From Halomonas huangheensis (GTDB lineage Bacteria; Pseudomonadota; Gammaproteobacteria; Pseudomonadales; Halomonadaceae): a DNA stretch of 64,000 bases. The stretch covers positions 4,154,001-4,218,000 of the forward strand of contig NZ_CP013106.1 of assembly GCF_001431725.1 (NCBI RefSeq). The letters run 5' to 3'. The notes beneath the pieces were generated by a model, which worked only from the letters and a program-made list of their open reading frames with translations, made no database searches and was not told where the DNA came from. The translations under genes and the position numbers were made by a program. Below, piece after piece: positions 39,425 through 60,665 of this stretch; the first letter of the stretch is position 1; every line of letters starts with the position of its first letter.

Positions 39425-40525
39425 CTAGTCTCCGTCCCGGCGCTGCGTGCCGAGTGTCTCGCGAATGCCATCGATGATGTGGTCCTCGCGAATCACATCA
39501 CGCAGCCAGTCTTCCAGAGGCATACGGCCCCAACGCACGGCCCGCTCGACCAGGTAAGGTACCGGACTGTGTGGCTCGCTGCCCTTGAAGAACTGAGCCA
39601 CGCCATTGAGCATCTCGAAGGCTTCCTCACGAGTCTGCGGTGTGGTGCGCAAGGCGGCTTGAGGAGCGGCCTCTACGGCCGATGCCTGAGCCGCCTTGCT
39701 GGTGGACACAGGAGCCTCCTGCGACGCCACAACCTGAGGCTCGGCTGCCTCGCTTGCGTCGCCGAAATCGACTCCACGCTCATTGAGTACGCGTTCGATC
39801 AGTTGGCTGCACTCGCGCAATACTTCCTTGAGCTCGTTGAAGCTCGGTGCCTGATCACCCATGTGCTCGGTGAGGATTTCATCCAACTCTGTCAGCACCT
39901 GCTGACAGCGCTCGATTTGCGTATGGCGCTCGGTCAGGAAGTCGGTCTCCGTCAGCACCACCGAGCGTTGGAATATCTCGGCATTGATCTTGCCGTCAGC
40001 CAGCGCCCCTTCCATGGCATCGCGATCATTGCGTGCAAGGTTCTCGACCTGGCGTGACTCTTCATAGCGCGCCAGCCCGTACTCCTGCCCTTCCAATAGC
40101 GGAATTTCGCCGACCATGCCCGCCAGAGAGGTATCCAGCCAGGAAAGGCGCCCAATACGCTCTTCATCACCATCTTCGAGCGTTGGATAGAGTGGTTCCC
40201 AGAAGCGTTGGCACAGTTCTGTGACAAGCTCGATGCCGTAAGCCATCCCGGTGAAGTGGTTGCGGTGCGATAGCCCTTCACACAGCCATCCGGCCAGCAT
40301 CAGATCCTTGCTCTGCTCCGCCAGAGCCTGCGAGGACAGGTTGATGACCTCGTTCCAGTCGGACTTCTTGAGGTCGGACTGCCATTCCCCCTGGCTGAGG
40401 TAGGTTGGATCGGCGCGACGCGCTTCCTTGATCTGATCCATGAGCAATGAAAAGCTCAGATCTTCTCCCGTACCATGCTCACCAATTGGGGCGAGCAGGG
40501 CTTCACGATCCCATTCGTCGACCAT
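39425..40525 (-). CDS. tssA: T6SS baseplate/cap protein TssA
   Basis: TssA of 366 aa with the N-terminal ImpA domain: LLAPIGEHGTGEDLSFSLLMDQIKEARR followed by DWNEVINLSSQALAEQSKDLMLAGWL and GLSWLDTSL-like segments. The C-terminal third is a different module (SPVPYLVERAVRWGRMPLEDWL), matching TssA proteins that carry a short C-terminal VasJ-like tail. The open frame begins at 40543, but AGAGGAAC stands before ATG 40525. It is the first gene after the hairpin-rich spacer 3' of hcp. Confidence 0.9.
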   Translation of the reverse strand: MVDEWDREALLAPIGEHGTGEDLSFSLLMDQIKEARRADPTYLSQGEWQSDLKKSDWNEVINLSSQALAEQSKDLMLAGWLCEGLSHRNHFTGMAYGIELVTELCQRFWEPLYPTLEDGDEERIGRLSWLDTSLAGMVGEIPLLEGQEYGLARYEESRQVENLARNDRDAMEGALADGKINAEIFQRSVVLTETDFLTERHTQIERCQQVLTELDEILTEHMGDQAPSFNELKEVLRECSQLIERVLNERGVDFGDASEAAEPQVVASQEAPVSTSKAAQASAVEAAPQAALRTTPQTREEAFEMLNGVAQFFKGSEPHSPVPYLVERAVRWGRMPLEDWLRDVIREDHIIDGIRETLGTQRRDGD

Positions 40526-40549
40526 GCGAGTTCCTCTCGGCACAGGGAT

Positions 40550-40777: not shown

Positions 40778-41323
40778 TCAGGAGTAGACGCGGTTGCGAG
40801 TGCGGTCCCAACCACCCGCGATGTTGCCGCCACCCTGGCCATCCTGACGCTTCTGCTGGGTGTAGTTGACCTTGATACGCGCGTAGTTGAACTTGATCTC
40901 CTCGGAAGGCAGATCGTGACGCGTGTCATGCACCGAGTCAGTAGAACCGCCGCCGCCGTTCTGGGCGAAGCTGGCCATGCCTTCCATACCAGTGGAGGAC
41001 ACGATGACTTCTTCCAGCCTCACTTCGAGGTAACGCACCTGGTCGCCGCCTGCACGATGCACCTGCAGGACGACTTCCTTGATGTGCTGACCACGGCAGC
41101 AAGCTTCGAACAGCTTGGGAGATGCCTTGTCGATGAACTTGGAAATGGCAAACTCGCTCAGGTTGACGCGCTCAGCGGAAGCACCACCCGCAGAGCTGGC
41201 AGTCGCAGAGGTTGCCTGGCTAGCACCGAACTCAAAGCTCAGCAGCTCAATCCAGTCCGTGTGGTTGGCATCCAGGCTTTCGCCGGGGATACCGTCGATT
41301 TTCAAATATGCATCAAATGCCAT
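40778..41323 (-). CDS. hcp: Hcp tube protein
   Basis: Hcp of 181 aa, the inner tube subunit of the T6SS (tssD). It opens with MAFDAYLKIDGIPGESLD, has the EFAISKFIDKASPKLFEACCRG segment and HRAGGDQVRYLEVRLEEVIVSS, all family hallmarks, and ends in a lysine/arginine-rich tail. No toxin is fused to it. The gene is separated on both sides by long hairpin-rich spacers, which suggests it is expressed at a different level from its neighbours. Confidence 0.96.
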   Translation of the reverse strand: MAFDAYLKIDGIPGESLDANHTDWIELLSFEFGASQATSATASSAGGASAERVNLSEFAISKFIDKASPKLFEACCRGQHIKEVVLQVHRAGGDQVRYLEVRLEEVIVSSTGMEGMASFAQNGGGGSTDSVHDTRHDLPSEEIKFNYARIKVNYTQQKRQDGQGGGNIAGGWDRTRNRVYS

Positions 41324-41561: not shown

Positions 41562-44042
41562 TCAATTAAGTGCGCGAACCTCAATTTCTACCCGGCGATT
41601 CGGCGCCAGGCACGCGATGCGCTCGGAGCGACTCATGCTGCCTTCACACTGCACCAGTGGACGCTCGTTACCTGCGCCAACCGCTTCAATCAGCTCTGGC
41701 GCCATGCCTTTACCGATCATGTAGGTACGTACGGTCTCGGCACGCTCCAGTGAAAGTCGCTTGTTGACGCTCGCCGAACCAATCTGATCGGCATGACCGG
41801 TAATGGTGATACGGCCCAGATTGGGGGTATTGGAAAGCCGCTCGACGACCTGGTTGAGCTGACGCTGCCCCGCCCCCTGCAAACCGGCAAAGTCCGCACG
41901 GCCGAAGGCAAACAAGGTGTCGGACTCCAGGGTGATGGTTTCCAGCGTGCGCAGTGAGCGATTCAACAAGCCATCGATATAGTTGCGGCTCGACGAGATC
42001 AGGAAAGCGTTGTCACTGATACGCGGCACATCAGCGAGATGAATCTGTGCGGCATAGAAGTCGATCTGCCGGCTGGCGTAATCGAGATCACGCTGATCCC
42101 GTTGCCCACTTCGCGCCTCGGCAATTGCCGGATACCAGTAGTCCGGCACCCGCTGGCGCAGCAGATCCTTTTCGACCTTATCGCGTGGCGTGCGCGACAG
42201 CTCGAGATAGGTAAGAAGCGTCGAGTTACCGAAATCCGCCAGCGCCTGTGGTGAGTTATCCACTGGCCGTGCGTAGGGCTCAATGCTCTCCACCTCGATG
42301 TCTTCCAGACGCTCACCTCCAGATTGATAAACCGGGATGGTCGGCAGCACGAACAAGGATTGATTGAGGTTCTCGGCCACCGGCGTGAGCATCACGCGAT
42401 CGATCTGCGTGAAATACGCTTCGCGCAGCGACGGCTCGAGATCCTTGCCGTGATAGAGGCCAAAGCCCATCGACCAGGGCACGCCCTCTTGATGGCGCTC
42501 GAAATAGCGCTCCGCATCACCGCGCATGGCATCCAGTGTCTGCCAATGGGTATAGCTATCAGCCTTCTGGCTATCGGCTTCGCTGGCCTCAACCAACTGA
42601 GTATCGATCTGCTCAAGTTCAGCGGCGTTGTGGTAGAAGGAAACTCCCCAGGCAATACACAGCAACAATGCCAGGGCGAGCGCAGCCCAACTCCAGCGCA
42701 ATTGACGCTGACGTACGCAATCGCGCCCAGTGTAGAGGCCAACCAGGTGTTGGTCGGGCAGAATCACCTGCGAGAACAGTCCGGTCACGAACAGGCTTTT
42801 GCCATCCTGCCGGGAGCCAATTCCACGCCCACCAGACAACTTGAAGCGCTGCGCCACCGAGCGCGCATGCTCGCCCTGTGCAGGCTGACCATCGGCCAGC
42901 GCGCTGGTGAAATAGAAACCACGCAGGAGAGGCGCCGACTGATAGGGGTTGGCCTGCAACAAGGCGCCGACAAAACCACTCAGAACGCCAGACAGCGCAC
43001 GCAGCTCCAATGGGAACTCGAGTGCCGCTGGATCCTCACGGGTACGGATGACATCGCTTTCGATCAGGCTCTGCTCACCGATTGCGCGACACCGCGACAC
43101 CAGACGCGCCAAGCCTTCGGAAAAGCGCTGTTTGAGGTTGGCATTGGCGAAATCCTGATGCGGGAAGGTCATACCCAGCACTTCCTCGCGCTGATCAGGC
43201 TCCAACTGCGCATGGAACTGACGGAAGCCGGGAATCAGGTCGCTCTTGGTGAAGACCAGGTAGATCGGTAGCGCCATCCCGAGCAGTTCATGAGTCTCCT
43301 GAATTCGCTCGCGCAAGCGTTGGGCCAGCGTCTCACGCTCAACCTCGGTGCTACCTATCAGTTCGTCGGCACTGACCGCGACGATCAAACCATTGAGCGG
43401 CCGACGCGAGCGATGACGCTTGAGCAGCTCCAGGAACGCGCGCCACTTACCCACTTCTTCCTCGTCGCTGACATAACGGCCAGCGGTATCCAGCAGCACG
43501 GCCTCGCTACTGAAGAACCAGTCACAGTGGCGCGTACCACCAACGCCGGAAACACGAGCGTTCTCGCGGTCAGAGAACGGGAAGTCGAGCCCTGAACGAT
43601 ATACCAGGGTGCTCTTGCCGACCGCTGGCTGGCCAATCACCAGATACCAGGGCAAGCGATACAACAGATCACGCTTGCGGCCCTTGCCGCCACCATTCTT
43701 CTTCATGCGCTCCAGCGCATTGAGCAGACGCTCGCGAAGCAGGCTGACTTCCTCGCGATCCTCTGGAGCAGCGCCCAATACGGCATCATCAGCGTTCTGG
43801 ATCAACAATGACTCAACATCACCGTCCTTGCTGCGCCCCACTCCTCGGTAGAGCAGCAACAGGTAGAGTGCGGAAGCGACCAGGAACACCAGAATTCCCA
43901 CCAGCAGGCTATCCAGTGATGAGAAGCCCCACCAGCTGCCGAGCCCCCAGATCACGAAGATCAACAGGAAGAACCCCAGCGCCATGCCGTAAGGACGATA
44001 TCTTGCCCAGTAGTATTTCAGCTTGTTCATCAGCTTTTTCAC
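41562..44042 (-). CDS. TssM-like protein with C-terminal OmpA domain
   Basis: Protein of 826 aa with two N-terminal membrane segments, a G-domain with Walker A GQPAVGKST (about residues 137-145) and ImcF-type motifs (LDTAGRY, TKSDLIPGF), a third membrane segment (about 445-463), and a periplasmic part. Instead of the usual TssM C-terminal domain it ends in an OmpA-like peptidoglycan-binding domain (about 715-825; ITGHADQIGS, LSLERAETVR, CLAPNRRVEIEV). A separate full-length TssM is encoded upstream and TssL lacks an OmpA part, so this protein may anchor the membrane complex to the cell wall. Its start overlaps the tagF stop (GTGA). Confidence 0.88.
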   Translation of the reverse strand: MKKLMNKLKYYWARYRPYGMALGFFLLIFVIWGLGSWWGFSSLDSLLVGILVFLVASALYLLLLYRGVGRSKDGDVESLLIQNADDAVLGAAPEDREEVSLLRERLLNALERMKKNGGGKGRKRDLLYRLPWYLVIGQPAVGKSTLVYRSGLDFPFSDRENARVSGVGGTRHCDWFFSSEAVLLDTAGRYVSDEEEVGKWRAFLELLKRHRSRRPLNGLIVAVSADELIGSTEVERETLAQRLRERIQETHELLGMALPIYLVFTKSDLIPGFRQFHAQLEPDQREEVLGMTFPHQDFANANLKQRFSEGLARLVSRCRAIGEQSLIESDVIRTREDPAALEFPLELRALSGVLSGFVGALLQANPYQSAPLLRGFYFTSALADGQPAQGEHARSVAQRFKLSGGRGIGSRQDGKSLFVTGLFSQVILPDQHLVGLYTGRDCVRQRQLRWSWAALALALLLCIAWGVSFYHNAAELEQIDTQLVEASEADSQKADSYTHWQTLDAMRGDAERYFERHQEGVPWSMGFGLYHGKDLEPSLREAYFTQIDRVMLTPVAENLNQSLFVLPTIPVYQSGGERLEDIEVESIEPYARPVDNSPQALADFGNSTLLTYLELSRTPRDKVEKDLLRQRVPDYWYPAIAEARSGQRDQRDLDYASRQIDFYAAQIHLADVPRISDNAFLISSSRNYIDGLLNRSLRTLETITLESDTLFAFGRADFAGLQGAGQRQLNQVVERLSNTPNLGRITITGHADQIGSASVNKRLSLERAETVRTYMIGKGMAPELIEAVGAGNERPLVQCEGSMSRSERIACLAPNRRVEIEVRALN

Positions 44043-44983
44043 CACGATATGGTTCCCCTGCTCCCCATTGGGTTTTCCTGGTCAGGAAACCGCGTTATAT
44101 ACGTCCCCATATCCAGCTCAGCCGGCGGTAGCGCCATATCCGCCCAGCGCGGATTGAATTCTTCGAAGGCTTCGAGTACATCAACGCGCGCTGCACTCGA
44201 TGCCTGGCCGGACAGCAACCGGAATGCTTCATGATCGGCGCTGGCGAAACGCCAGAGCTGAGGACGCATGAAGTCATCAACCAACAGGCTCGCCTTGGCC
44301 CGGTGCGGCACCTGATACTCCAGCCAATGTAGCCAGAGGTCTGCGGCCGGACGTTTGAGAGCTCGCTCGGCAGGCAGCGGCAGCACGGCCTGAAACGTCT
44401 CTCCACGCTGCAGACCTTGATGCAGTACCTGCATGCGCAGCGCGAAGGCGTTGGCGATGAACTCGGGGAAGCTGGGTTCCAGCGCCTTCACCAGATCGCT
44501 GAAACGCACATCCTCGAGAAAGCGTTGCAACAGGCGTTGCTGAAGCTTGAGGTCTGCATCCCCCAGTTCGCGCAGCTCATCGATGCTGTGATGCAACTCT
44601 TCAACGCTGGATTCTCCGTGCACTGTGCGTTGCAACAAGGTGCGCAGTTGGCCAGAGAAGGTTTCGCTGAGGGTGTGCACACCGACACTGCCCTCCACCT
44701 GCGACGCCACGCTGAGGCGCTGAAAGATCAACAGCGGGTAGCGACGCCCACTGGCATCGCAGGAGCTGTGCAGTCCTCCCAGCAGCCAGTAGCCATTGCT
44801 GGCACGGAAATGGAAGAAGCAGGTCGGCAGGGCATCGAACTGGTCCTGCCAGCTGTCATCCTGGTCGGCCATCCTCGCCAGACAACGCTGTAGCCAGGTA
44901 TCCAGCTCCTGCACGTCCTTGTAGGCGGCGTTATACGCCACGAAGTCGGCACTTCCCGGCACTTTGCCGAAATATCCGATCAT
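44039..44983 (-). CDS. tagF: T6SS-associated protein TagF
   Basis: TagF of 314 aa. The N-terminus MIGYFGKVPGSADFVAYN and FHFRASNGYWLLGGLHSSCDASGRRYPL are typical of the ImpM/TagF domain. In Pseudomonas aeruginosa TagF is a post-translational repressor that acts together with the Ppk/Ppp/Fha cascade, but no fha, ppkA or pppA gene is found in this window. It overlaps the TssM-OmpA gene and follows tssM by 38 bases. Confidence 0.92.
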   Translation of the reverse strand: MIGYFGKVPGSADFVAYNAAYKDVQELDTWLQRCLARMADQDDSWQDQFDALPTCFFHFRASNGYWLLGGLHSSCDASGRRYPLLIFQRLSVASQVEGSVGVHTLSETFSGQLRTLLQRTVHGESSVEELHHSIDELRELGDADLKLQQRLLQRFLEDVRFSDLVKALEPSFPEFIANAFALRMQVLHQGLQRGETFQAVLPLPAERALKRPAADLWLHWLEYQVPHRAKASLLVDDFMRPQLWRFASADHEAFRLLSGQASSAARVDVLEAFEEFNPRWADMALPPAELDMGTYITRFPDQENPMGSRGTISW

Positions 44984-45021: not shown

Positions 45022-48000
45022 TCAACGCGCTCCTGATGGTGTAGGAATCCGTAAACGCCGCACCTGCTTGAGGTCGGTGAGCTTGACGCCACCAAAGTTG
45101 CGCGCCACCAGACTCACCGGCCCCATGCTGGTGTACCAGGTGAAACGCTGACGCACCGCATCAAGATTGGTGACATCGGCGGAGTCAATCAGCTTCAACA
45201 ACCCCCAACGCGACGGAAAATCGAAGACCGTCACACGTTGCCCACCGAAGGTGACAACTTCCAGGCGCGCCCCAGCCTGACGCTCATCACCCGGCCAGGT
45301 GAATCGTTCCCACGACTGAGGGCCATTGCGATATTGCTGCTGCTGGCCGTCCAACGTCAGCTCGATCGAGGTGAAGTTGGATGCCGGCTGGATCATGATC
45401 TCGAAACCATTCTCGACATCCGCCAGGCTCTCCAGCACCCGACCGACACTGGTTCCTTCAGCGATGGTCGCCGTGATACTCGGATCGACCAGCGGTTCTC
45501 CTTCGCCCCCCGCCTCATCGAGATTGCCGACCTCCTTCTCATCGAAGGTCACCAACAACCCGGACTGCGGATCAACGAACTGGCGAAGGTCACGCACTGA
45601 GGCTTCGTTGCTGGAATCACTGACGGGATAACGGCCGTTGACCATGCTCTGCCATGGCGTGGCGATCTGATCGCTCCAGGCGGCCGCCAACTGCTCGGCA
45701 ATCGGCCCATCGAGACTGGCCACCGAGAACTCCACCGGATCACGGAACAGGCTCTGTATCGATTGCACCAGCTCATCGCGTGAGGTATCGATGTTGGCCG
45801 CGACATAGTTGCGCACGGCGGTAATCTCATTGGGATTGCCGCCGATCACGTCTTCCATCAATTGCTTGGTACGCTTACCCAGGTCGCCACGCTCGAGGCT
45901 ATCGAGGCGCGCCTTCAACTGACGCAGCAACAGCAGGTACTGATCCATATGGTTGCTGTCGCCCTCGGCACCGGCCTCGGTGGAGAACAGATTGCTCACC
46001 GGCTCGAAGTGGTAAGCGAGGAAGCCATCATGGATCGGTGGCATATCACTGAGCAGCGCCACCTTGTCGGCGGCTTCATCACCGCTTACCCAATCCAGGG
46101 TACCCTGCCAGAACCCCTGAGACTCCGACGTACCGGCCTCACCTTCCTCACCAGCACTCTCGGCCTGGCGCTGCTTGGCCTCTCGGGAGTCCCAGTTGGT
46201 GTTTTCATTCACTACCTGAAGCAGGACTTTCAGCGGTGAACGCTGATAATCACTGAGCTGAGTCAAGTGAGCGCGCGAGTTGCTCAGGTCATCAAAACGC
46301 CGCACACCGACATCGGCGATGAAGCGCTCCCAGGCATAGACGTAATCGCTCTTGTAGCGACCCAACACCTCGCTGGCGAACTGCGCCTTGCCCTGCACTT
46401 CATCCAGCGATGAATCGCCTTCCAACACCCAATCGCGCTCAACTTCAATGTCCGAGGCCAGCGTCTTCGCCAGTTCCGGACGCACGAATTCCTCCCACAC
46501 TCGGTGAGTAAAGAACGCTGGCACGGCTTCACCGGCATACATCATCGGCTGGCCGGCTTCCGGCAGAATGTCGGCCAGCGTCAGCGGCGGGAATTGCTCC
46601 TCCGACAGCAGACGCAGGCGCAGATATTCACGATCCGCGGGAGACTGGTTGACCAGGAAGGACTTGAGATCGGCCCGTGCCTGAGCGATCAATCGTTCGT
46701 CAGGCTCGATGGCCGGTGCCTTGCCTTGAGCAAGGTAGTCACTGTAGAGCGCCACATTATCGGCAATCAGTGAGCGCTCACCTGGTACCCGTGAGCTGCG
46801 ATCGGACAAGTGCTGCCAGGCGCGCGGCAACATGTTGCTGACGAACTCGCTCTGGTCTGCGTGGGCCTCGGGGTTGCTCAGGACCAGATACAGCTTGAGC
46901 ACGTCATAAGCATCGATCAGGTCTGCAACCTGCGTCGGCTCCAGACGATTGAGTGCTGCATCGGTGAAGGCCGGCCCTGCATGGGTGAACGCGGAACTCG
47001 CGATTTCCTCGTCGCTCAACCCATTCCGCCAGGCATCTCGCGCCCCCTCACGCAATGCATCTCGACCCTGCTGACGTGCGCTCCAGAAGGCGTCATTGGC
47101 ACTACCGCGTACCCGATAATCGAGCTCACCACGCACACGTCCAGCCAGTTCACCAGGTGATCGCGGAATACTGCCCAGCGACGGGCGGCTGGTCAGGCGG
47201 TCTCGCATCCGATCACCGCTCTCCGAAACCATGTTGCGGCCTTCGCCCATCGCGCCAGCGACCATTCCAGAGTCACCCGTTTCATCTTCACTGACTGGTA
47301 CTTCAATCTGGTTGTCGAGTCCCAGCGAGGTGGCCAGCGCTCCTACCTCGGCCAGACGCCGCCCCAGATCCTCGCCCAATGGCGTGAGCACCTGATCACG
47401 CATGGCATCCATCCACACCTGCTCAACAGCGGGGCGCAAATCATCATCGATCCCCAGACCCGCATTCTGCCAGGCGGCCAGCCCTTCGCGCTCCTCACTC
47501 TTCAGATGAACCAACTGTTCGTTGAGCATCGACAATCGATCACTGTCGGATGCATCGACAACCGCATCCAGTTGCTCATCCAACTGCTGGCCTTGCTTAT
47601 AGCTGAGCCACCAGGAATGGCCGAGCAATGCCAACACACCGATGCCGACGAGCCCTGCCACGCCTACCATCCAAAGGTTGGAGCCCTGCCGACGTCCATT
47701 GCGGGAATAGTGCTGTACCAGGTTGCGGTCTGCGATCAACACATCGCGGAACAGTCCCTGGATGAAATAACTACGGTCACTGCGTGCACGACTCACTGGG
47801 CGTTCCGCAGCGCCTTCGGTAAGGGCGAAGGTATTGCAGGTCTGCACATCAATGATGGCTTCCAGACCTTCACCCTGTTGTAGAGCACTGGTGAAGTACA
47901 GACCACGCGTCAGTGGCGCCGTATCAGGGTTATGACGCAGGTCGAAAGGTTCGAGAAAATCCGTCAGACGACCGTGAATCTCGGCGACATAATCCGGGAA

Positions 48001-48966
48001 GCGCAACAGAGCGCTGGTGGTGTTACGCCCCTCTTCCACCACCTGGCGATCAACATGAGCACGCAATGCCTCGACCATCGGCGCGAAACGCCGAGCAAAG
48101 GACTCACCGAGGCCCTTTCCGCGGATATCCGCTACCGGGAAAGTCATCCCCCAGGGTGTCTGGCGTGCAGTGGAATCAAGACTGTGGAAAGCCTCGATAA
48201 AGCCCGGCAGCAGGTCGGCCTTACTGAAACACAGGTAAACCGGCGGTGCCGACCCCAGTGCCTTGTGATATTCGTTGATGCGCTCAATCAGTTGCTGAGC
48301 CAGTGCGTGGTTATCCTCGCGTGGCGCACGCAGCAGCTCGGGGAGGTCGATGACCACCACCAGACCGTTGATCGGCTTGCGCCGACGACGGCGAGCCAAC
48401 AGGCGCAGGAAGTTGGCAAACTCCTGGGCCGGCTGCTCTTCCGCGATGTAGCGCCCAGCAGTATCAACCAGCACCGCATCACTGCCGAAGTACCAATCAC
48501 AGTATTGGGTGCCGGACTCGGCACCGAGGCCAGCAACACCGGTATTGAGACCGGAACGCGTCAGCAACGAAGTCTTGCCTGATGCCGAATGTCCGACCAC
48601 CAGATACCAGGGCAGCTCACTGAGTGTGCCGCCGCGACCACCGCGCGCCTTGAGCATGCCCAGCGCTGACTTGAGGCGTTCACGCAGGACTTCGTAATCA
48701 CTGGCCTGAGAGGCCACGCTCGCCGCTTCGCGATTGACCTCCAGTTGCACCAGCTCCTCGAGGTCACGCTCAGCACGGACCTGACGGTACTTGCGCAGAA
48801 CTATCGCCAATAGCCAGATGGCTGTGAGTAGTGCCACCGCAATGGCGAGGCGCTGCGGACCACCACCGAGACGCGGGATCCACCACACGCACAACACTAC
48901 TGCTGCCAGCCAAAGAGCAAAGGACAGCAGCCAGAAACTCTTGAGGAATCTCAATAATCGCCGCAT
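45022..48966 (-). CDS. tssM: T6SS membrane complex protein TssM (IcmF)
   Basis: Inner-membrane TssM of 1314 aa, close to family length. Two N-terminal membrane segments, a cytoplasmic G-domain with Walker A GHSASGKT (about residues 125-132), LVDTAGRY and CFSKADLLPGF, a third membrane segment (about 455-475), then the long periplasmic part with the C-terminal domain that contacts TssJ (LRQFVDPQSGLLVTFDE and FTWYTSMGPVSLVARNFGG). The frame begins at 48990, but ATG 48966 follows GAGG and gives the normal MRRLLRFLKSFW opening. It overlaps or adjoins tssL. Confidence 0.95.
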   Translation of the reverse strand: MRRLLRFLKSFWLLSFALWLAAVVLCVWWIPRLGGGPQRLAIAVALLTAIWLLAIVLRKYRQVRAERDLEELVQLEVNREAASVASQASDYEVLRERLKSALGMLKARGGRGGTLSELPWYLVVGHSASGKTSLLTRSGLNTGVAGLGAESGTQYCDWYFGSDAVLVDTAGRYIAEEQPAQEFANFLRLLARRRRRKPINGLVVVIDLPELLRAPREDNHALAQQLIERINEYHKALGSAPPVYLCFSKADLLPGFIEAFHSLDSTARQTPWGMTFPVADIRGKGLGESFARRFAPMVEALRAHVDRQVVEEGRNTTSALLRFPDYVAEIHGRLTDFLEPFDLRHNPDTAPLTRGLYFTSALQQGEGLEAIIDVQTCNTFALTEGAAERPVSRARSDRSYFIQGLFRDVLIADRNLVQHYSRNGRRQGSNLWMVGVAGLVGIGVLALLGHSWWLSYKQGQQLDEQLDAVVDASDSDRLSMLNEQLVHLKSEEREGLAAWQNAGLGIDDDLRPAVEQVWMDAMRDQVLTPLGEDLGRRLAEVGALATSLGLDNQIEVPVSEDETGDSGMVAGAMGEGRNMVSESGDRMRDRLTSRPSLGSIPRSPGELAGRVRGELDYRVRGSANDAFWSARQQGRDALREGARDAWRNGLSDEEIASSAFTHAGPAFTDAALNRLEPTQVADLIDAYDVLKLYLVLSNPEAHADQSEFVSNMLPRAWQHLSDRSSRVPGERSLIADNVALYSDYLAQGKAPAIEPDERLIAQARADLKSFLVNQSPADREYLRLRLLSEEQFPPLTLADILPEAGQPMMYAGEAVPAFFTHRVWEEFVRPELAKTLASDIEVERDWVLEGDSSLDEVQGKAQFASEVLGRYKSDYVYAWERFIADVGVRRFDDLSNSRAHLTQLSDYQRSPLKVLLQVVNENTNWDSREAKQRQAESAGEEGEAGTSESQGFWQGTLDWVSGDEAADKVALLSDMPPIHDGFLAYHFEPVSNLFSTEAGAEGDSNHMDQYLLLLRQLKARLDSLERGDLGKRTKQLMEDVIGGNPNEITAVRNYVAANIDTSRDELVQSIQSLFRDPVEFSVASLDGPIAEQLAAAWSDQIATPWQSMVNGRYPVSDSSNEASVRDLRQFVDPQSGLLVTFDEKEVGNLDEAGGEGEPLVDPSITATIAEGTSVGRVLESLADVENGFEIMIQPASNFTSIELTLDGQQQQYRNGPQSWERFTWPGDERQAGARLEVVTFGGQRVTVFDFPSRWGLLKLIDSADVTNLDAVRQRFTWYTSMGPVSLVARNFGGVKLTDLKQVRRLRIPTPSGAR

Positions 48967-48976
48967 GGAGACACCC

Positions 48977-49693
48977 TCAAGATGATTCAAACAGCGTCTG
49001 CAGGCGCTCGATCAACGCCTCGACTCGTGAATCCAGAATGCCGTCCAGCACCAGGAACACCACGCCACACAGCAGCGCGATCAATACCAGGTAGACCCAC
49101 ACCGGAATCTCGTGACGCAGCAGCTGACCTACCTGATCGGGCAAGCGCCAATCTGGCGCCAGCTCTTTGGGTGACTTGCGATAACGCGCAATGTCCTGAC
49201 CCAGGGTGTTGGCGATATAGCGCAGTTGGTCGCGGTGCTCGAGGCGATACTTGCCCTCGAACCCCAGCGCCAGGCACAGGTGATAGACCTCCAGCACATC
49301 CACGTTGCCCTTGACGTCACTACGCAACGAGTCGAGCCGTTCGAAGAAGCCTTCACCCGCCAGGTGTACGCCGAAATAGCGGTATTGCAGCGGATGCAGC
49401 TCAATATGTTGACGAATGTTGTTGGCCCCGGCACCGAGCACACTCTCATCGAGGAAAGCACACATCGCGTACTGGGCGTCGCGGTACTGCTCCATGGAGT
49501 AGCCTGCGGCCAGCGCCTGTGACTCCAGTTCACTGAAGTAGGTGGCGACGTGCTCGAGAAAAGCATCGACGCTCTGCGCTTCACTGCCACGGCGAATCAT
49601 CAGCACCATGGAAAAGAAATCCTGCGTCAGGCCGAGCAGCGTGGTCGGTGCCTCCACTGCTGAATCCTGTTGTGTCGTTATGTACTGATTCAT
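48977..49693 (-). CDS. tssL: T6SS membrane complex protein TssL (DotU), short form
   Basis: TssL of 238 aa: a cytoplasmic helical domain (LRSDVKGNVDVLEVYHLCLALGFEGKYR is the DotU signature) and one C-terminal membrane segment (WVYLVLIALLCGVVFLVL) with a short periplasmic end. There is no OmpA extension, unlike longer TssL proteins; the OmpA domain in this locus is on the second TssM-like protein. It overlaps tssK by four bases. Confidence 0.95.
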   Translation of the reverse strand: MNQYITTQQDSAVEAPTTLLGLTQDFFSMVLMIRRGSEAQSVDAFLEHVATYFSELESQALAAGYSMEQYRDAQYAMCAFLDESVLGAGANNIRQHIELHPLQYRYFGVHLAGEGFFERLDSLRSDVKGNVDVLEVYHLCLALGFEGKYRLEHRDQLRYIANTLGQDIARYRKSPKELAPDWRLPDQVGQLLRHEIPVWVYLVLIALLCGVVFLVLDGILDSRVEALIERLQTLFESS

Positions 49694-51033
49694 TTGAGCA
49701 CCGCCATCAGTTCAATCTTGAGATTGGTGAAGCCACTGGGGACGTAGAAGGCGATGGCCTGCGCCGACATCATCCGCTCATACATCTGGCCGCGCGGTTC
49801 CAGTGCAAAGTAGTGATTGTCGAGACGCACGGGGATCGCCACCGGCAGTCGGCTGGCGTGAACCAGCGAACCACCAGGCATGGCGCTGTTGACCACGACC
49901 TCGATATCCTCCGGTGAGCCGACCTTGAAGGCGCGAGGCACCAGTTCGATAAGTCGAGCTCCGGGCATATCGGCATGCACGCAGACGTAGAAGTCGGCAT
50001 CCACCAGACGCGAATCGTGCAGTCGTCCCACGAAGTAGGAAGGTTTGGTCTGCTCCAGTGCGATCGGGATGTACTGGTTGGGCACCACGGTATCGAGCAG
50101 CTCACGTGCCATGCTGTCGAGCCGATACAACGACGCCGTGGGGTCCTCGTGGCGATAGGCCGGCAGATCGCCAAGCCGATGGCTCATCGAGAAGGTCATC
50201 AGACTCGACACGAGGTCCGCCAGGAAGGTGAACAGGCGCTCGGGGTGCAACCGGGGATGCTGCAGCAGATGCGCCAGATGCGGATAGGCGCGATTGACGG
50301 TGTACAGCAACCAGAACAGCGTGACATCGCTGGAACCAAACTCCGCCACCTGGTCGGCACGCTCCCGACGGCGGTTCGACAGTGCCTCGCTCTTGGCCTG
50401 CAGCACTCCGATCAAGCGCTGAGCCAGCGTCATCAGCGTGTCACTGGCGCCAAGATGCAGACTTGGAGGGACAAAGCTGCCGTCCACCGAGAACCCACCG
50501 GTGGCGTTACGCTTGAGCAGTACCAGCGGGCAATGACTGGTACCTTCCAGGTCATCGCCTTCCAGCAATAGACGAACATTGAGCTCCAGCAATGAGAGTT
50601 CGTTCTCGACATCACCTTCGACCAGATCCGGAAGATTGCTGAAGCGCTGCCGATAGCGGCGGCTGCTGCCACGCCGATGCTCGTCATCAACCACATTGGA
50701 GGAGAACGGTTCAGTCAAACGCAATGCGGCAAAAATGCGGCACTCGGAGACACCGCTCACCTCACCGAGGTCACGTGCGGGTGGCAACGGATCGTGCTGC
50801 GGCGCATCCACCAGAGTCCCATCGGGAAACACCAGCTTGAGGCGCGTTAGCTGCAGGCGCCCCTGGGCCAGCGCATCGACATCGACTTCCAGCTCCTGCA
50901 CCCCCCAATTGAAGGCACCGACACGCTGGCTCGCCTCACTCAGCTGATGCTGGTGATACTCGTCCTGATACTGAAAGTGCTGAGGTTGAAGGAACATCCC
51001 TTCCGACCACATCACGCGATTATGCTTGCTCAC
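49690..51033 (-). CDS. tssK: T6SS baseplate protein TssK
   Basis: TssK of 447 aa that connects the baseplate with the membrane complex. It opens with RVMWSEGMFLQPQHFQYQD, the strongest family hallmark, and has FLADLVSSLMTFSMSHRLGDLPAYRHED in the middle of the protein. It ends in MYERMMSAQAIAFYVPSGF. It overlaps tssL and follows tssJ after 37 bases. Confidence 0.96.
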   Translation of the reverse strand: MSKHNRVMWSEGMFLQPQHFQYQDEYHQHQLSEASQRVGAFNWGVQELEVDVDALAQGRLQLTRLKLVFPDGTLVDAPQHDPLPPARDLGEVSGVSECRIFAALRLTEPFSSNVVDDEHRRGSSRRYRQRFSNLPDLVEGDVENELSLLELNVRLLLEGDDLEGTSHCPLVLLKRNATGGFSVDGSFVPPSLHLGASDTLMTLAQRLIGVLQAKSEALSNRRRERADQVAEFGSSDVTLFWLLYTVNRAYPHLAHLLQHPRLHPERLFTFLADLVSSLMTFSMSHRLGDLPAYRHEDPTASLYRLDSMARELLDTVVPNQYIPIALEQTKPSYFVGRLHDSRLVDADFYVCVHADMPGARLIELVPRAFKVGSPEDIEVVVNSAMPGGSLVHASRLPVAIPVRLDNHYFALEPRGQMYERMMSAQAIAFYVPSGFTNLKIELMAVLK

Positions 51034-51070
51034 TGGTCCCTTCCCTTCTCAGCGCCGGTGGCGCGAGACA

Positions 51071-51643
51071 TCACTGGCTTTCGTTACGGGAGGCGAGTAG
51101 TTCAGCGCTGTCGCCTACCGCCTCCATGTGGTGGTCTGCGAGATGCACAATGACGCCATCCGGTGAAGTCAGGATGCCGTCCTTGCGCATTGCAGTGGCG
51201 TCAAACACCAGACGCCAGCGGTTGTCCGGCACCTGGCGAAAGAATGCCACCACTGCGATATAGCGCGTCTCCGTTGCCATGGGCGCGCTATCGACCACTT
51301 CGCGTTCCGGCAACAGCACGACTTCACGCTCACTGAGCAGCGAATCGCCCAATGCCTCGCTCGGGGCCTGCCACAGCAGCTGCGGCGATGCCGAGTTGAA
51401 GGCGGTGAGCGAGTTGAGCTGATAGATACGCGTGACAACCGACAGTGGATTGCCGTCGGCATCCGGATTGAGGTGCTCGTCGCCCTGGAGCGTCACCACG
51501 ACCTTTTCGTCCTGGTTGAACAACACGTCACCCACAGTGCCATCCAGTTGCTTTCCAATTCGCCCGCTCACGCCGCAACCGGCCAGCAGGCTGGATAGAA
51601 TCGCCACCATCACGAGGGACCACCATCCCTTGCGGTAACGCAT
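51071..51643 (-). CDS. tssJ: T6SS outer-membrane lipoprotein TssJ
   Basis: Lipoprotein of 190 aa with a signal peptide ending in the lipobox LLAGC (lipidated C23). The mature part has the transthyretin-like beta pattern of TssJ, with PLSVVTRIYQLNSLTAFNSA and VVAFFRQVPDNRWRLVF. ATG 51643 is preceded by AAGGGA; the longer frame is not part of the signal peptide. It anchors TssM to the outer membrane. Confidence 0.93.
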   Translation of the reverse strand: MRYRKGWWSLVMVAILSSLLAGCGVSGRIGKQLDGTVGDVLFNQDEKVVVTLQGDEHLNPDADGNPLSVVTRIYQLNSLTAFNSASPQLLWQAPSEALGDSLLSEREVVLLPEREVVDSAPMATETRYIAVVAFFRQVPDNRWRLVFDATAMRKDGILTSPDGVIVHLADHHMEAVGDSAELLASRNESQ

Positions 51644-51698
51644 GTGCTGTGTCCCTTCCCTGCGAGTTATCATTTTTCTTTATGTCCTTTGCTGCCGG

Positions 51699-54326
51699 TT
51701 ATTCCATGCGGTAGATGAAGTCACTGTGTTCATCGACCCCGACCTGAATACTGTCGATGGGAGTGTCGGCGGCCATGCGCTCAAGCACCTGCTCGGCAAG
51801 CTCCGGCATCAGGGCGCCGGTCAACAGATGGTCGATGCTGCGCGCGCCACTGTCGGTCTGGGTGCAACGTTCAGCAATGTGCTCGGCGAGTTCCGGCGCG
51901 AATGTCAGCTGTGCCCCATGATTGAGCTCGAAACGCTGTGCCAGGCGGGCCAGTTTGAGATTGACGATGCGTGTCAGCACCTCACCCTGTACCGGGTAGA
52001 AAGGCACGATCTTGAGGCGTCCGAGGAAAGCGGGCTTGAAGACACCATTGAGGGTATCGCGCATCTCCTCGACCAGACCTTCGGGCTCGGGGTACTCCTC
52101 CGCACCGAGGCAACGCTGCATGATCCAGTCGGTACCGACGTTGGAGGTGAGCAGGATCACGCAGTTGCGGAAGTCGATCTCACGTCCCTCACCGTCCTCC
52201 ATGACGCCCTTGTCGAACACCTGGAAGAACAGTTCGAGCACATCGGGATGCGCCTTTTCCACTTCATCCAGCAGCACCACACTGTAGGGCTTGCGGCGCA
52301 CCGCTTCGGTCAGCACCCCACCCTCGCCATAGCCGACATAGCCGGGCGGAGAGCCCTTCAGCGATGACACGGTATGGGCTTCCTGGTACTCCGACATATT
52401 GATGGTGACCAGATTGCGCTCACCGCCGTAGAGAGTGTCGGCCAGCGCCAACGCCGTTTCCGTCTTGCCGACACCACTGGGACCCAACAACAGGAAGACG
52501 CCGATGGGCTTGTTGGGATCCTCGAGCTTGGCTCGAGACAGGCTGATACGCTTGCCGATCTCGACCAGCCCGTGGTCCTGACCGATGACCCGCTCTCCCA
52601 GCAACTGAGGAAGGCGGCGTACGGTATCGATCTCGTCACGCTGCATCTTGCCCAGCGGAATGCCGGTCCAGGCGGCGACCACAGCGCCAATGGCATTGCC
52701 ATCGACACAGTCGTGTACCAGCGGCTGGTCCCCCGCCTGGCTACCGAGCTCCTGCCGCGCCTTGAGCAGCGCCTCGCGAGCACCTGCCTTCGCCGCATCG
52801 TCACTGGCTTCGCTCAGCTGCTGCTCGGCTTCGCGGATCGTTGCGACGGATTCACGCTGCTGCTGCCAGCGCGCTTCCAGTGCTTCGATCTGCTCACCCA
52901 GCTCGGCCAGTTGCTCCTCCAGATCAGCGAGACGAGCATCGTGGGCACTCTCGCCACGTTCACGTTCGTGGCGCAGTACGCTCTGCTCGGCTTCGAGGTC
53001 CAGCCGACGCTGGCGCGCATCTTCCAGTTGGGCGGGTGCTACGGCCTGACCGAGGGCAACGCGCGCGCAAGCGGTATCCAGCACGCTGACTGCCTTGTCC
53101 GGCAGTTGGCGACCACTGATGTAGCGGTGAGAAAGGCGTACGGCCTGAACCACGGCATCGTCGAGAATCTCGACACCATGATGGTCGCGCATGCGACTCG
53201 CGAGGCCGCGCAACATGTCGATGGCCACATCCTCGGTGGGCTCGTCGACCTTGACCACCTGGAAGCGCCGCGCCAGAGCGGCGTCCTTCTCGAAGTACTT
53301 CTTGTATTCCGCCCAGGTGGTCGCCGCGATGGTACGCAGCTCACCACGCGCCAACGCCGGCTTGAGCAGGTTGGCAGCGTCGTTCTGCCCTGCCTGACCA
53401 CCGCTGCCGATCAAGGTGTGAGCCTCGTCGATAAACAGAATGATCGGATGCAGGCTGCGCTTGACCTCTTCGATCACATTCTTGAGGCGCTGCTCGAACT
53501 CTCCCTTGACCCCAGCTCCCGCCTGCAACAGGCCAAGATCAAGCGTACGCAGCTCTACATTGGCCAGTGCCTCGGGCACGCTGCCGGCGACAATCTTCAG
53601 CGCCAGCCCTTCAACGACGGCGGTCTTACCGACCCCTGCCTCACCGGTGAGGATCGGGTTGTTCTGCCGACGGCGCGTGAGGATATCGATCATCTGCCGG
53701 ACTTCCGCATCGCGGCCCAGCACCGGATCGATACGCTTTTCACGCGCGTTATCAGTCAGATTGATGGTGTATTGGTCCAGCGCGGGGGTCTTGCCTCCAC
53801 GTTTTCCGCTGCCGCTGCCCTTGCTGGACTGAGGCTGAGCAGCCTCGGCCGACTGCTGCTCCGGGCTTGATGCCAGCAAGTCATCGAAATTGAGACGCAG
53901 GTCATCGGCATCGAGGTTCTCGAGCTCCGGCGCACTCTCGCTGACCACACGCCACAATTCCTGATCACTGAGCAAAGCCAGCAATAGGTGACCACTGCGG
54001 ACAAGTCCCTTGTCCTGATCGATCGACGCAATCACCCAGGCACGCTCGATCAAGCGCGTGATGTGCGGAGATAACGCAGGCGTCCGAGTACAGCCTGTCT
54101 TGAAGGTCTCAAGAGCTCGATCCAGCTGGTCCGCCAGTCGATCCAGGGCTAACTCATAGTGCCGCGCGATACGCAGCACGTCGTTGTCATCCGCATCGAT
54201 CAGTTTGAGCAACAGGTGCTCGATATCGACCTCGTACTGGCGCTTGGCAAGACACAGCCCAGCGGCCTCTTCCATCGCGCCGCGGCTGACATCATTGAGC
54301 TTGGCAAATAGTGTCTTGAGGCTCAC
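51699..54326 (-). CDS. clpV: T6SS sheath disassembly ATPase ClpV (TssH)
   Basis: AAA+ unfoldase of 875 aa that recycles contracted TssB/TssC sheath. N-terminal Clp repeat domain (about residues 1-150), AAA1 with GEAGVGKTA and [10 protein letters not shown], a middle coiled coil (about 410-520), and AAA2 with [20 protein letters not shown] and a C-terminal D2-small domain. Length and middle domain fit ClpV rather than ClpB. It overlaps tssG by ATGA. Confidence 0.96.
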
Positions 54327-55402
54327 GTGGTGGCTCCGTTGAAGGGAATACGAAATAGGGCCTGGCCATCACGGGCGCGGGGGCGCCCACCCAGCCAGCC
54401 GATACGGCCGAGCGTGACACCGTCATCGCCGCCGAGGCGTGCCGCGGGCACCTGCTCTGCGGCGAGATCGAGTTCGATCTCGAAGTCCAACTCGGCACCG
54501 AGGTAGTAACGGGTCAGGCTGATCAGTTGGGTATGGTCGGGTTGCCCCGGCTGAAAACGCTGATAGTCGCTGAGCGGTAACGGGCCAAGCGCGATCCTGA
54601 CGCAGGACTGGTAGTCCCACACCCGAGTACCGGCAACAGCGGACTGCCCGAGCTGTGAGTTGCCACGTCCAAGCCGCGTTCGCTCGCGTTCGGGAATCTC
54701 CAGCCAGCGCCCGCTGAAAGGGCGTACCTGGATCGGCACGTTGAAATAGAACTCCAGCATCGATTGCAGATTGAGCTGATTACGCGGCCGCTGAGCCAGC
54801 AGACCGGCAAAGTAGCTGAACAGCTCGCGTGGCAGATCGGCTTGCGGCTCGGTTGTCTGATGACGGTTGGTCAGCAGGCCGCGGGAGTGATCGGTGAGCC
54901 CCACCAGTGCTTGCAGCTGACGTTCGAAATCCGCCTCGCCCTTGCGCTCGTACTCGATGAAGAAGCGGTATTTCTGCCAGGCCTCGTAGAACATCGCGGT
55001 CATGCGATGGGAGAACAGGTCGAGAAACGCATGACCCGCATCGTCACGCAGATGGATATGACGGTCGATCAGGGTCTCGGTATAGGGACGCGGCAGCACG
55101 CCAGAAGGCCCGACCAGCCCCATGAAAGTGACCTGTATCTCGGTTAGCGGCTGATCATTGGCCGACAGACGCTTGCTGCTTTCGAAGGTCAGGTCGCTGA
55201 TCTCGCTGGCCGGAAACTCCAGTGACAGCTTGCTGCGGAAACGCAACGGATCCTCGTGCGGACGCGACTCGGGGTCGAGCCTACCGAGGTGGCTGTAATG
55301 GAGTCTGAACAGGCGAACGAGCTGGAAGAAGCCAAACCGGTACGGTTCAGCCCTTGCTCGGTCGATCAGACCAGGGACTGAGTGCCGGTTCTGGGCGGCC
55401 AT
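54323..55402 (-). CDS. tssG: T6SS baseplate protein TssG
   Basis: TssG of 359 aa. It begins with RARAEPYRFGFFQLVRLFRL and has the family segment FMGLVGPSGVLPRPYTE and FLDLFSHRMTAMFYEAWQKYRF. It forms the baseplate wedge with TssE and TssF. The start lies 37 bases inside tssF, so the two are tightly coupled. Confidence 0.95.
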   Translation of the reverse strand: MAAQNRHSVPGLIDRARAEPYRFGFFQLVRLFRLHYSHLGRLDPESRPHEDPLRFRSKLSLEFPASEISDLTFESSKRLSANDQPLTEIQVTFMGLVGPSGVLPRPYTETLIDRHIHLRDDAGHAFLDLFSHRMTAMFYEAWQKYRFFIEYERKGEADFERQLQALVGLTDHSRGLLTNRHQTTEPQADLPRELFSYFAGLLAQRPRNQLNLQSMLEFYFNVPIQVRPFSGRWLEIPERERTRLGRGNSQLGQSAVAGTRVWDYQSCVRIALGPLPLSDYQRFQPGQPDHTQLISLTRYYLGAELDFEIELDLAAEQVPAARLGGDDGVTLGRIGWLGGRPRARDGQALFRIPFNGATT

Positions 55403-57201
55403 GTCACGACATCCTTTTCGCGCTGACGACTACGCAGCGTCAGTTGGGTGAAACTGTTGATCGAGCAGTACTGTGCGAGGAAGTGATCCAACACCATCCC
55501 GAACAGATAGATGCCGCTACCGATGAACTGTTGTTCATCGAGCTCCAGCGTAATACCCAACCCCCTGACGAAAGCCGGACGCGGGTGCCCGATCCGTGTC
55601 ATGGTCGGCTCACTATCGATGGCAGTAATACCCTTGATCTGGCGTCGGGCCGCTTCGGTATCGCGATAGTTGTACAACGCCAGCATTTCCAGCAACGCTT
55701 CACGACCACGCGACACCATCGATAGATGGTTGAGTGATAGATGCGAGATCAGACGCCAGATCAGCCCCTTGCCCAGCGGCGGGCGTACAGCAGTGGTCGG
55801 CTTGCGCAGACAACGGATCGCCTTGACCACTTGCTCTCGCGGCAAGGTGAAGTCGCCCTGCGGGTGGCCGAAGTTCAACTGCTGCGGAAGGTCACGGTTG
55901 CTGCAGGTCAACTGCAGGCTAAGCACGTCACTGGACGCTTCAACCCGAGTCAGTTCGCGATCCACCAGACGCAGCTGCATCTCTGTACCGACGTCCTGGC
56001 GACGCTCCGAGGGCACTCGGCGGGCCAGCCAGTGGCTGTTACCGTGTCGCTGATCATGCCAACGCGGCTCGAAGAATGGGTGACAGACCGTCACCTCATC
56101 ACGCTGTGCGGTCTTCTTGACGCGCTTCACCTGATCGATGGAGACGATCTCGACACCATAGGGATGACGCACATCAGCCACCACCGGATACTCGTGCTGG
56201 GTGTGAGTCAATTTGATCGGCTCGGCGAGGCGACGAAACAGATTGATGACCGGCGTGCAACCAAGCCTGAAGTGGTTTCGTCCAAGGTTCTGCGCCAAGC
56301 GTGACAAACGTTCGTTCGAAGAATAATCAGCAAAATGAAAGTGCAGCTGGAACTGAGTACCCTCCACACGGGCCAACACCCGATCCAGACCGCGAAGATC
56401 AACGAACATGAACTTCTCGGGAAACACGAAGTACTCGTGCAACAGACGATATCCGAGGAAAGAACGCTCGGAGTAGTCGATCAAGCCTTCATCCGGGTCG
56501 AAGCCAACCGGCTGTACACACGCCAACGGCAGATTGACCTCACTTCGCTGGCCTTCTTCATCGAAGCTGACGCTGATCCGTGAGAGGTTGTTGAACAACA
56601 GCTCGTGCAGCGGGTGCATCAGGGCCCCTTCCCCATCAAGGAAGAAGCGCAACTGATCGATCTCCAGTGGCGCGATGCTCTGCTCCGCCAGGCTACTCAG
56701 ATTGAGATCGAGACGCGCCACGCTGTCACGATCCCGACCATTGAAGGCCGAACGCTCGAGCAGCGAGAAACGAGCATTATCGACACGCACCGGCCATACC
56801 GTGACGTCATAACAGGTCCGAAAACGACAGGTGGTCCCCCCCACAGCACGCGAGAACAACTCGGTGTGGCGTGGCAGGTGATAGCGCGAATCCAGAGTCG
56901 AGCTGTCGCCGAGGTCGAACTGGGCAATCGACAGCGATGGCGTCGGCCTCAGGTAGTGCGGATAAAGCACTTCAAGAAAGGACTCAACGATCTCGGGAAG
57001 GTCATCATCGAGCTTCTTGTGCACTCGCGCGGAGAGGAAGGCAAAAGCCTCGATCAGTCGCTCGGTATGGGGGTCCGCACTATTGTCTTCCTCGAGCTGC
57101 AACCTCGCGGCAACTTTCGGATACTCACGCGCAAACTCCCGGCCGAGAAAGCGCAGGTGCGAAAGTTCCTTTTCATAGTAAGGCAGCAGATCGTCGAGCA
57201 T
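55366..57201 (-). CDS. tssF: T6SS baseplate protein TssF
   Basis: TssF of 611 aa. The opening LLPYYEKELSHLRFLGREFAREYPKVAARL is the family signature; RRLAEPIKLTHTQHEYPVVADVRHP and HLSLNHLSMVSRGREALLEMLALY follow. It is the main wedge subunit with TssG. The start overlaps the tssE stop by one base. Confidence 0.96.
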   Translation of the reverse strand: MLDDLLPYYEKELSHLRFLGREFAREYPKVAARLQLEEDNSADPHTERLIEAFAFLSARVHKKLDDDLPEIVESFLEVLYPHYLRPTPSLSIAQFDLGDSSTLDSRYHLPRHTELFSRAVGGTTCRFRTCYDVTVWPVRVDNARFSLLERSAFNGRDRDSVARLDLNLSSLAEQSIAPLEIDQLRFFLDGEGALMHPLHELLFNNLSRISVSFDEEGQRSEVNLPLACVQPVGFDPDEGLIDYSERSFLGYRLLHEYFVFPEKFMFVDLRGLDRVLARVEGTQFQLHFHFADYSSNERLSRLAQNLGRNHFRLGCTPVINLFRRLAEPIKLTHTQHEYPVVADVRHPYGVEIVSIDQVKRVKKTAQRDEVTVCHPFFEPRWHDQRHGNSHWLARRVPSERRQDVGTEMQLRLVDRELTRVEASSDVLSLQLTCSNRDLPQQLNFGHPQGDFTLPREQVVKAIRCLRKPTTAVRPPLGKGLIWRLISHLSLNHLSMVSRGREALLEMLALYNYRDTEAARRQIKGITAIDSEPTMTRIGHPRPAFVRGLGITLELDEQQFIGSGIYLFGMVLDHFLAQYCSINSFTQLTLRSRQREKDVVTWPPRTGTQSLV

Positions 57202-57689
57202 CAGGTCAGGTTCTGTACTTTATAGCGTTGTGTTTCGGCCTGCAGGACGGCATCGAATGCCACCTGCTGCCGGGCATCCATCAGTACCAGCATGGCGTCG
57301 ACCCGGAAGCGCAGGAGACGATCCTGGTTGTCCTGGTCGAGCAGACGAACTCGCACGTTGCGAAAGCGACAATCATTGCTCTCGATGGCGCGTTCCAACT
57401 GGCGCTGAATCAGCTGACGGTCATCGGTACTGTGTAATCCCCGCCCGAGAAAGTCGGGCAGGCCATACTCCAGCAGAGACCCTTGTAACGATGGATAGTC
57501 GGCGAGCCGAGCACTGAGCAGTTCACGACGAGTGTTGACCAGAATTTCCAGGTCACGCACGATCGCCGCCTTGTACTCATCCAACGTGCTCCAGTGCCGT
57601 TCCTCGGCTTCCACACCCTGGTGTGGCTCGTCATCAAGCAGACGACACCACAGCGTGGGCACGAACATCCTTGTGCCTTTCAGTTGCAC
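57201..57689 (-). CDS. tssE: T6SS baseplate protein TssE (gp25-like)
   Basis: TssE of 162 aa with a gp25-like lysozyme-fold domain: DLEILVNTRRELLSARLADYPSL, YGLPDFLGRGLHS and AIESNDCRFRNVRVRLLD. It nucleates sheath assembly on the baseplate and overlaps tssF by one base. Confidence 0.94.
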   Translation of the reverse strand: MQLKGTRMFVPTLWCRLLDDEPHQGVEAEERHWSTLDEYKAAIVRDLEILVNTRRELLSARLADYPSLQGSLLEYGLPDFLGRGLHSTDDRQLIQRQLERAIESNDCRFRNVRVRLLDQDNQDRLLRFRVDAMLVLMDARQQVAFDAVLQAETQRYKVQNLT

Positions 57690-57752
57690 GGCTCACCTCA
57701 TCGCTTCAATCGGCCAGCAGTGCTGGCCGTTGTCTCATGACTTACTTGCCAC

Positions 57753-59261: not shown

Positions 59262-59276
59262 GTCGTGGCTCCAGCG

Positions 59277-60636: not shown

Positions 60637-60665
60637 GCTCAAGATCCCTCCTGAAGCCTGTTGTT

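Follow-up and report, generated by a model that had tools for sequence, protein, structure and literature searches.

Why does a type VI secretion system (T6SS) locus that already encodes a full-length TssM also carry a second, shortened TssM-like gene, the product of which ends in an OmpA-type domain? The question is raised by the Halomonas huangheensis DNA analysed here, a stretch of 64,000 nucleotides referred to below as the window. The initial annotation regarded this TssM-OmpA hybrid as new, while granting that it would not be so if such hybrids were known as the normal anchor of their T6SS subtype. In fact, the same architecture has already been described as TagP of the Pseudomonas putida K1-T6SS (available portions of PMC10433429, PMC5363822 and PMC5813230), albeit as a predicted component. 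The protein type is therefore already named, and the window hybrid is an added member of it.

TagP of the K1-T6SS (group 4B) is presented in PMC5363822 and PMC10433429 as a TssM derivative whose periplasmic C-terminal portion contains pfam00691, a peptidoglycan-binding domain, and the K1 cluster as TagF1 plus 12 core genes in one operon. Peptidoglycan-binding domains on TssM-like proteins (TagL/TagP) are also noted in a review (PMC5813230), and the source cited for TagP is Aschtgen et al. 2010. The available part of PMC8253398 states that no data are available on TagP, and the hybrid goes unmentioned in that of Boyer et al. 2009 (PMC2660368). Within the open-licence literature we found neither experiments on TagP nor a report on a Halomonas TssM in type VI secretion, and the words TssM, TagP, IcmF and OmpA are absent from the main text of a Halomonas T6SS paper (PMC13337758).

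To this description we add that 30 of 250 family genomes carry the hybrid, in every case with another IcmF gene some 5 kb distant, that ten related single-TssM clusters have a TagN-type OmpA protein in the same slot, and two likenesses of its parts: the OmpA domain appears true-OmpA-like, not TagN-like, and the NTPase region nearer to the single-TssM type than that of the partner TssM (40% vs 33%).

Domain organization of the hybrid protein

The end of the gene lies where it was initially placed, at position 41562, but its start is a GTG at 44045 rather than position 44042. The next in-frame ATG is found at 44030 (M6), and as one relative (L035) begins there, M6 may be the true start.

Pfam analysis identified IcmF-related_N (PF14331) at residues 195-454 (2.6e-72), a partial IcmF-related match (PF06761) at residues 502-690 (profile positions 3-152 of 308) and OmpA (PF00691) at residues 711-806 (1.2e-14). 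IcmF_helical and IcmF_C (PF21070, PF06744), both present in the adjoining TssM, were absent from the hybrid in this search. This bears out the reading of the gene product as the second TssM-like protein of the locus, truncated and fitted with an OmpA anchor. The two missing domains correspond to the pillar and TssJ-binding parts of TssM, and the hybrid would therefore be devoid of both. By approximate mapping, residue 690 of the hybrid aligns near residue 775 of TssM. Residues 693-1271 of the partner TssM match the solved TssM structures 6hs7/6ixh (the 6hs7 part being 491-1054), therefore the hybrid seems to keep the membrane-proximal part only, without most of the 6hs7-matched region. None of its 44 PDB matches at E 0.001 was a TssM structure. 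A structure prediction from a three-row alignment (window, L023, L024) reached a mean pLDDT of 35.8 and was set aside.

A hydropathy scan revealed hydrophobic stretches at about residues 17-44, 38-70 and 450-472, a pattern much like that of TssM. Given the third segment, and with the orientation taken by analogy with TssM, the OmpA domain would be periplasmic. The hybrid also scores 446.6 with TIGR03348, the NCBIfam equivalog model of TssM, which is above its cut-off of 388.15, therefore automatic annotation may label TagP as a second TssM and calls for caution.

The T6SS cluster of the window

The hybrid is embedded in a cluster of which the minus-strand order is tssB, C, E, F, G, clpV, tssJ, K, L, M, tagF, hybrid, hcp and tssA (Table 1). 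As the initial annotation had noted, a full-length TssM and an OmpA-less TssL are encoded in the same locus. PF14331 is matched by two genes only in this genome, the hybrid and its partner TssM, and the OmpA HMM detected no second OmpA-domain protein in the whole 64 kb, the sole match being the hybrid.

Table 1. Coordinates of the hybrid gene, its parts and the neighbouring T6SS genes in the window
Feature	Position	Strand	Basis
TagP-type hybrid, TssM-like N-terminal half and C-terminal OmpA domain, 827 aa	41562..44045	-	open frame, Pfam
Walker A motif GQPAVGKST, residues 138-146 of the hybrid	43608..43634	-	sequence
Predicted peptidoglycan-binding domain of OmpA/Pal/MotB type, residues about 692-827 (Pfam 711-806), with Cys800 and Cys812	41565..41972	-	Pfam, residue conservation
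Third hydrophobic segment of the hybrid, residues 450-472	42630..42698	-	hydropathy scan
tagF (TagF_N domain), directly upstream, its end overlapping the GTG start of the hybrid	44039..44983	-	Pfam
Full-length partner TssM, 1322 aa, with IcmF_helical and IcmF_C	45022..48990	-	domain search
TssL, short form, 238 aa, DotU only, without OmpA domain	48977..49693	-	domain search
TssJ outer-membrane lipoprotein	51071..51673	-	domain search
Hcp (TssD), next gene downstream of the hybrid	40778..41323	-	domain search
TssA	39425..40543	-	domain search
Remaining core: TssK, TssJ, ClpV/TssH, TssG, TssF, TssE, TssC, TssB	49690..59807	-	domain search

Several further minus-strand genes were observed around the core. 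The 398-aa protein adjoining tssA (38225-39421) has a weak 3-oxoacyl-ACP synthase match (7.5e-9), no Pfam match, and relatives in several hybrid loci (24-49% identity); by description it is reminiscent of TsmK, a pseudo-ketoacyl synthase belonging to the membrane complex of Acinetobacter. Upstream of tssB, a 251-aa protein without a Pfam match (59887-60642) is present in those hybrid clusters whose stretch extends there and, again by description, is a candidate for TagB, the protein of about 30 kDa encoded by the first gene of the P. putida K1 cluster. An NlpE-like protein (PF04170; 60699-61280) lies at the cluster start and is matched in related clusters. Downstream of VgrG, the segment 28570-35573 encodes a DUF4123 protein, a 900-aa VasX_N protein that is probably an effector, and a tandem array of three DUF6708 proteins that may confer immunity.

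Distribution and locus conservation

Named near relatives with a similar hybrid include Halomonas cupida (90% identical) and Billgrantia zhangzhouensis (77%). In the genus sample, IcmF was matched in 35 of 90 genomes and the hybrid was present in five, all of which have another IcmF frame, 1316-1329 aa long. Among 250 genomes of the family Halomonadaceae, 116 had an IcmF match (115 above the cut-off) and 30 a hybrid-sized gene (821-866 aa), always with the second IcmF gene about 5 kb off (30/30). In the wider samples two to three candidates were scored per genome and the counts are lower bounds: at least 4/293 genomes of the order (the window's genome, G113, G158 and G794), at least 2/369 of the class (the window's genome and G488), at least 1/299 of the phylum (the window's genome) and at least 26/249 of genus g348, Pseudomonas by inference. 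The family of G488 had the hybrid in 1/23 genomes. A partner TssM was listed for 24 of the 26 g348 genomes and found for a 25th (G1419), while none lay within 20 kb of the hybrid in G1376. Across the window's family, g348 and two further families the hybrid frames measure 787-907 aa. The plasmid collection yielded no match of more than 80% of the hybrid query, and neither it nor a scan of genome contigs turned up a named Pseudomonas hybrid. In another family, two IcmF open frames of just 712 and 716 aa were noted (G1080:C5 and G963:C24).

The search for other IcmF-OmpA hybrids and their gene context, proposed in the initial annotation, thus gave 39 hybrids that were examined in full, i.e. 32 from the 30 family members, G488 and G794, plus seven of the 26 from g348, in stretches of about 16-20 kb per locus (the whole 64 kb for the window). 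The order tssL-tssM-tagF-hybrid-hcp was kept in 37 of these 39 loci, with tssA following in 34 and the stretch ending at hcp in three. In the G1347 locus (L110) the hybrid directly follows tssM and tagF was not detected, and the 20-kb stretch of G1376 (L111) contains hybrid-hcp-tssA only, TssM, TssL and TagF not having been found in it. In L077 (G230) the partner TssM frame is broken into pieces of 571 and 178 aa, the hybrid being intact. Every one of the 39 stretches has exactly one OmpA-HMM match, the hybrid itself. Not one of these hybrids lacks the OmpA domain, whose loss among relatives had been raised beforehand as an objection.

Three further T6SS clusters from the family, L115-L117 (TssM of 1216-1217 aa, TssL of 270-281 aa), served as a control. 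They are without a hybrid within 20 kb, therefore the hybrid is tied to one T6SS lineage and not to the T6SSs of the family generally. Neither did their frames of at least 100 aa include any OmpA-HMM match within 20 kb, which shows that a T6SS cluster can be without any nearby OmpA protein.

Residue conservation and selection

The residues G138, G143, K144, D186, K267, D269, D753 and R768, together with C800 and C812, are invariant in 32/32 hybrids and in the 7/7 further ones, far more than chance would give. The Walker A motif, described beforehand as intact, is therefore kept in its G138, G143 and K144 in all 39. D753 and R768 lie at the usual diaminopimelate/peptidoglycan-binding positions of the OmpA family. 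The best conserved region is, narrowly, the OmpA domain (0.833 versus 0.81 for the next; n = 32 hybrids). Comparison with three relatives gave dN/dS values of 0.04-0.27 overall, with most dS values close to 1 or higher, so that the ratios are rough; by region they were 0.04-0.10 for the cytoplasmic NTPase part, 0.06-0.10 for the OmpA domain, 0.04-0.23 for TM1-2 and 0.11-0.27 for TM3 and the stub. The hybrid is thus shown to be under purifying selection.

Related single-TssM clusters and origin of the OmpA domain

The anchor fused to TssL, one of the comparisons drawn in the initial annotation, is not the nearest. In ten related clusters that have just one TssM (L049 of Paraburkholderia, L050 of A. 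baumannii, L052-L054 and L099-L103), a separate OmpA protein of the TagN type is encoded after tagF, in the very slot occupied by the hybrid (10/10). The gene after tagF in Acinetobacter is named TagN in the available part of PMC6838775. Seven of the ten proteins measure 255-282 aa and that of L049 about 310 aa as annotated; the open frames of L101 (470 aa) and L102 (645 aa) are longer, with uncertain starts. A TagF-OmpA fusion considered for L102 was dropped, as the coordinates of the two matches put them in different frames.

The shared slot suggested a direct fusion of tagN onto tssM, which is unsupported, as the OmpA domains of the hybrid and TagN group apart: in a tree of this short domain the ten TagN-type proteins form their own group, separate from the hybrids. 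Scores with the OmpA model of the hybrids were 45-55 bits for the TagN domains of all ten clusters and 89, 88, 68, 52 and 50 bits for five OmpA-like proteins from the genome of the window; of these five, only three are clearly closer than TagN. The OmpA C-terminal domains 5nhx, 4rha and 4erh rank among the top matches of the hybrid domain to solved structures (E about 1e-19). By these comparisons the OmpA domain of the hybrid resembles true OmpA and not that of TagN.

Ancestry of the two TssM paralogues

In the single-TssM clusters, the N-terminal half of TssM is best matched by the window hybrid and the C-terminal half by the window TssM. A tree of the N-terminal halves (67 of 73 segments, identical ones having been removed; L041-L043 are duplicates of three of the five single-TssM relatives) recovered the hybrids and the partner TssMs as monophyletic, each with support of 1.0, joined the hybrids to the single-TssM relatives at 0.762 and all three together at 0.991. 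In an extended tree, the hybrids of the window's family and six of g348 form one clade (0.999), the partners another (1.0), and hybrids with single-TssM proteins a third (0.87). Midpoint rooting of this tree breaks the three-way clade and leaves the partner TssMs outside, while rooting on other TssMs (monophyletic at 0.911) restores it. In the C-half tree, partner TssMs group with the five single-TssM relatives at 1.0.

Mean identities over the NTPase region (30 of 31 partner TssMs, L077 being left out because of its broken frame) were 40.1% for hybrid and single-TssM, 32.9% for partner and single-TssM and 33.3% for hybrid and partner. As judged from these alignments, single-TssM proteins are nearer in their NTPase region to the hybrid than to the partner TssM. 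We also looked for loss of an NTPase motif in the partner, but Walker A and DTAGR are kept by both paralogues.

The simplest reading of these relationships is that tssM was duplicated inside this T6SS lineage, one copy then losing what follows the periplasmic stub and gaining an OmpA domain instead. Either the duplication may be older than the divergence of the single-TssM lineage, or the N-terminal half of the partner may be fast-evolving.

A putative wall anchor and its alternatives

We suggest, with a probability of roughly three in four, that the hybrid is an orthologue of TagP, itself a paralogue of TssM belonging to one T6SS lineage, and that it anchors the membrane complex to the cell wall. 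Its domains and hydrophobic segments, the published TagP architecture, the single clade (0.999) and the conserved gene order point to this role, as do the partner IcmF in 30/30 genomes, the single OmpA match in 39/39 stretches and the OmpA protein in the TagN slot of 10/10 relatives. The D753 and R768 residues, kept in 39/39 hybrids, and the low dN/dS of the OmpA domain (0.06-0.10) are consistent with it. The IcmF-type NTPase domain of TagP would lie on the cytoplasmic side and three transmembrane helices would keep the protein in the inner membrane, the TssM-like periplasmic part being no more than a short helical stub. An OmpA domain predicted to bind peptidoglycan would here stand in for the pillar and TssJ-binding domains of TssM. 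Through its TssM-like membrane and cytoplasmic parts, TagP might then join the TssJLM complex, contacting TssL, TssM or TssK, and pin it to the wall, doing the job of TagL, long-form TssL or TagN. Counted against this are the dispensability of TagN in mutants of A. baylyi and A. baumannii and the G1376 hybrid, which stands without TssM, TssL and TagF in its 20-kb stretch. According to the available part of PMC10433429, peptidoglycan-binding proteins are seemingly unneeded for membrane-complex assembly, though some machines need them.

It is also conceivable, although we consider it unlikely, that TagP acts mainly with TagF as a regulator or brake, its wall-bound OmpA domain and NTPase domain forming a switch that keeps the membrane complex inactive until firing conditions arise. 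The position of the hybrid directly after tagF in 37/39 loci and an intact NTPase motif in a region under purifying selection are in line with this; furthermore, both tagN and tagF mutants of A. baylyi secrete more Hcp than the wild type (available part of PMC5061870). However, L110 retains the hybrid with no tagF detected, deletion of tagN in A. baumannii had no effect (available part of PMC10564176), and the hybrid OmpA domain groups apart from that of TagN, therefore TagN phenotypes may not transfer to it. Those phenotypes leave the choice between wall anchor and brake undecided. Similarly doubtful is a role as second scaffold subunit, with TagP and TssM in a mixed inner-membrane ring in which TagP would be the main NTPase and TssM would provide the pillars. 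The greater likeness of TagP to single-TssM proteins in the NTPase region (40.1% versus 32.9% for the partner) would fit, and the partner C-half groups with single-TssM proteins at 1.0, therefore both paralogues together resemble one ancestral TssM. Nevertheless, with Walker A and DTAGR kept in both, no clear loss marks such a division of labour.

A bolder evolutionary scenario, which we hold to be unlikely, makes TagP more than an anchor. In it, the duplication of tssM split one machine part: TssM would have kept the pillar and TssJ-binding half while its NTPase diverged, and TagP would have kept an ancestral-like NTPase, taken a true-OmpA-type anchor and displaced TagN. Both would form a mixed inner-membrane ring that couples wall contact to NTP hydrolysis and TagF control. 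It is extremely improbable that the hybrid is a decaying or chimeric gene without function, produced by accidental fusion of a truncated TssM or by an assembly error. Nothing but the truncation itself speaks for this, and it is refuted by conservation across independent assemblies, namely the presence of frames of 787-907 aa with low dN/dS and conserved order in 30/250 family genomes, at least 26/249 g348 genomes and two further families. Besides the anchoring that we favour, TagP may have a regulatory or second-NTPase role. Placing TagP in a frame of one clade, a near-constant second IcmF gene, the TagN slot and an OmpA domain of other origin enables simple tests of the role of wall anchoring and of the reason for two TssM-type NTPases in one T6SS lineage.

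Comparison with known systems

The hybrid shares with TagP of P. putida an N-terminal part derived from TssM, which comprises membrane segments and the IcmF NTPase domain, PF00691 in place of the periplasmic C-terminal part of TssM, and a T6SS cluster that also encodes the TssM core gene and TagF. The host family differs, and the window hybrid is 52-54% identical to the seven g348 hybrids examined. Orthology with TagP is suggested by the common clade with g348, if this genus is indeed Pseudomonas, and by the published description of TagP.

TssM/IcmF and the hybrid have the N-terminal membrane and NTPase part in common. TagN of Acinetobacter and Burkholderia is likewise of the OmpA type and encoded after tagF in related T6SS clusters, but it is small, has no TssM part and belongs to another OmpA-domain group, therefore the hybrid is not a TagN. 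TagL and long-form (evolved) TssL are T6SS proteins of the inner membrane that, as is predicted for the hybrid, carry an OmpA-family anchor in the periplasm. Here, however, the anchor would be carried by a TssM-like NTPase protein and TssL is short, so that the DotU-OmpA fusion that defines evolved TssL is absent from the window. With the C-terminal domain of outer membrane protein A, which in OmpA comes after a beta-barrel, the OmpA domain of the hybrid also shares the Cys-Cys segment.
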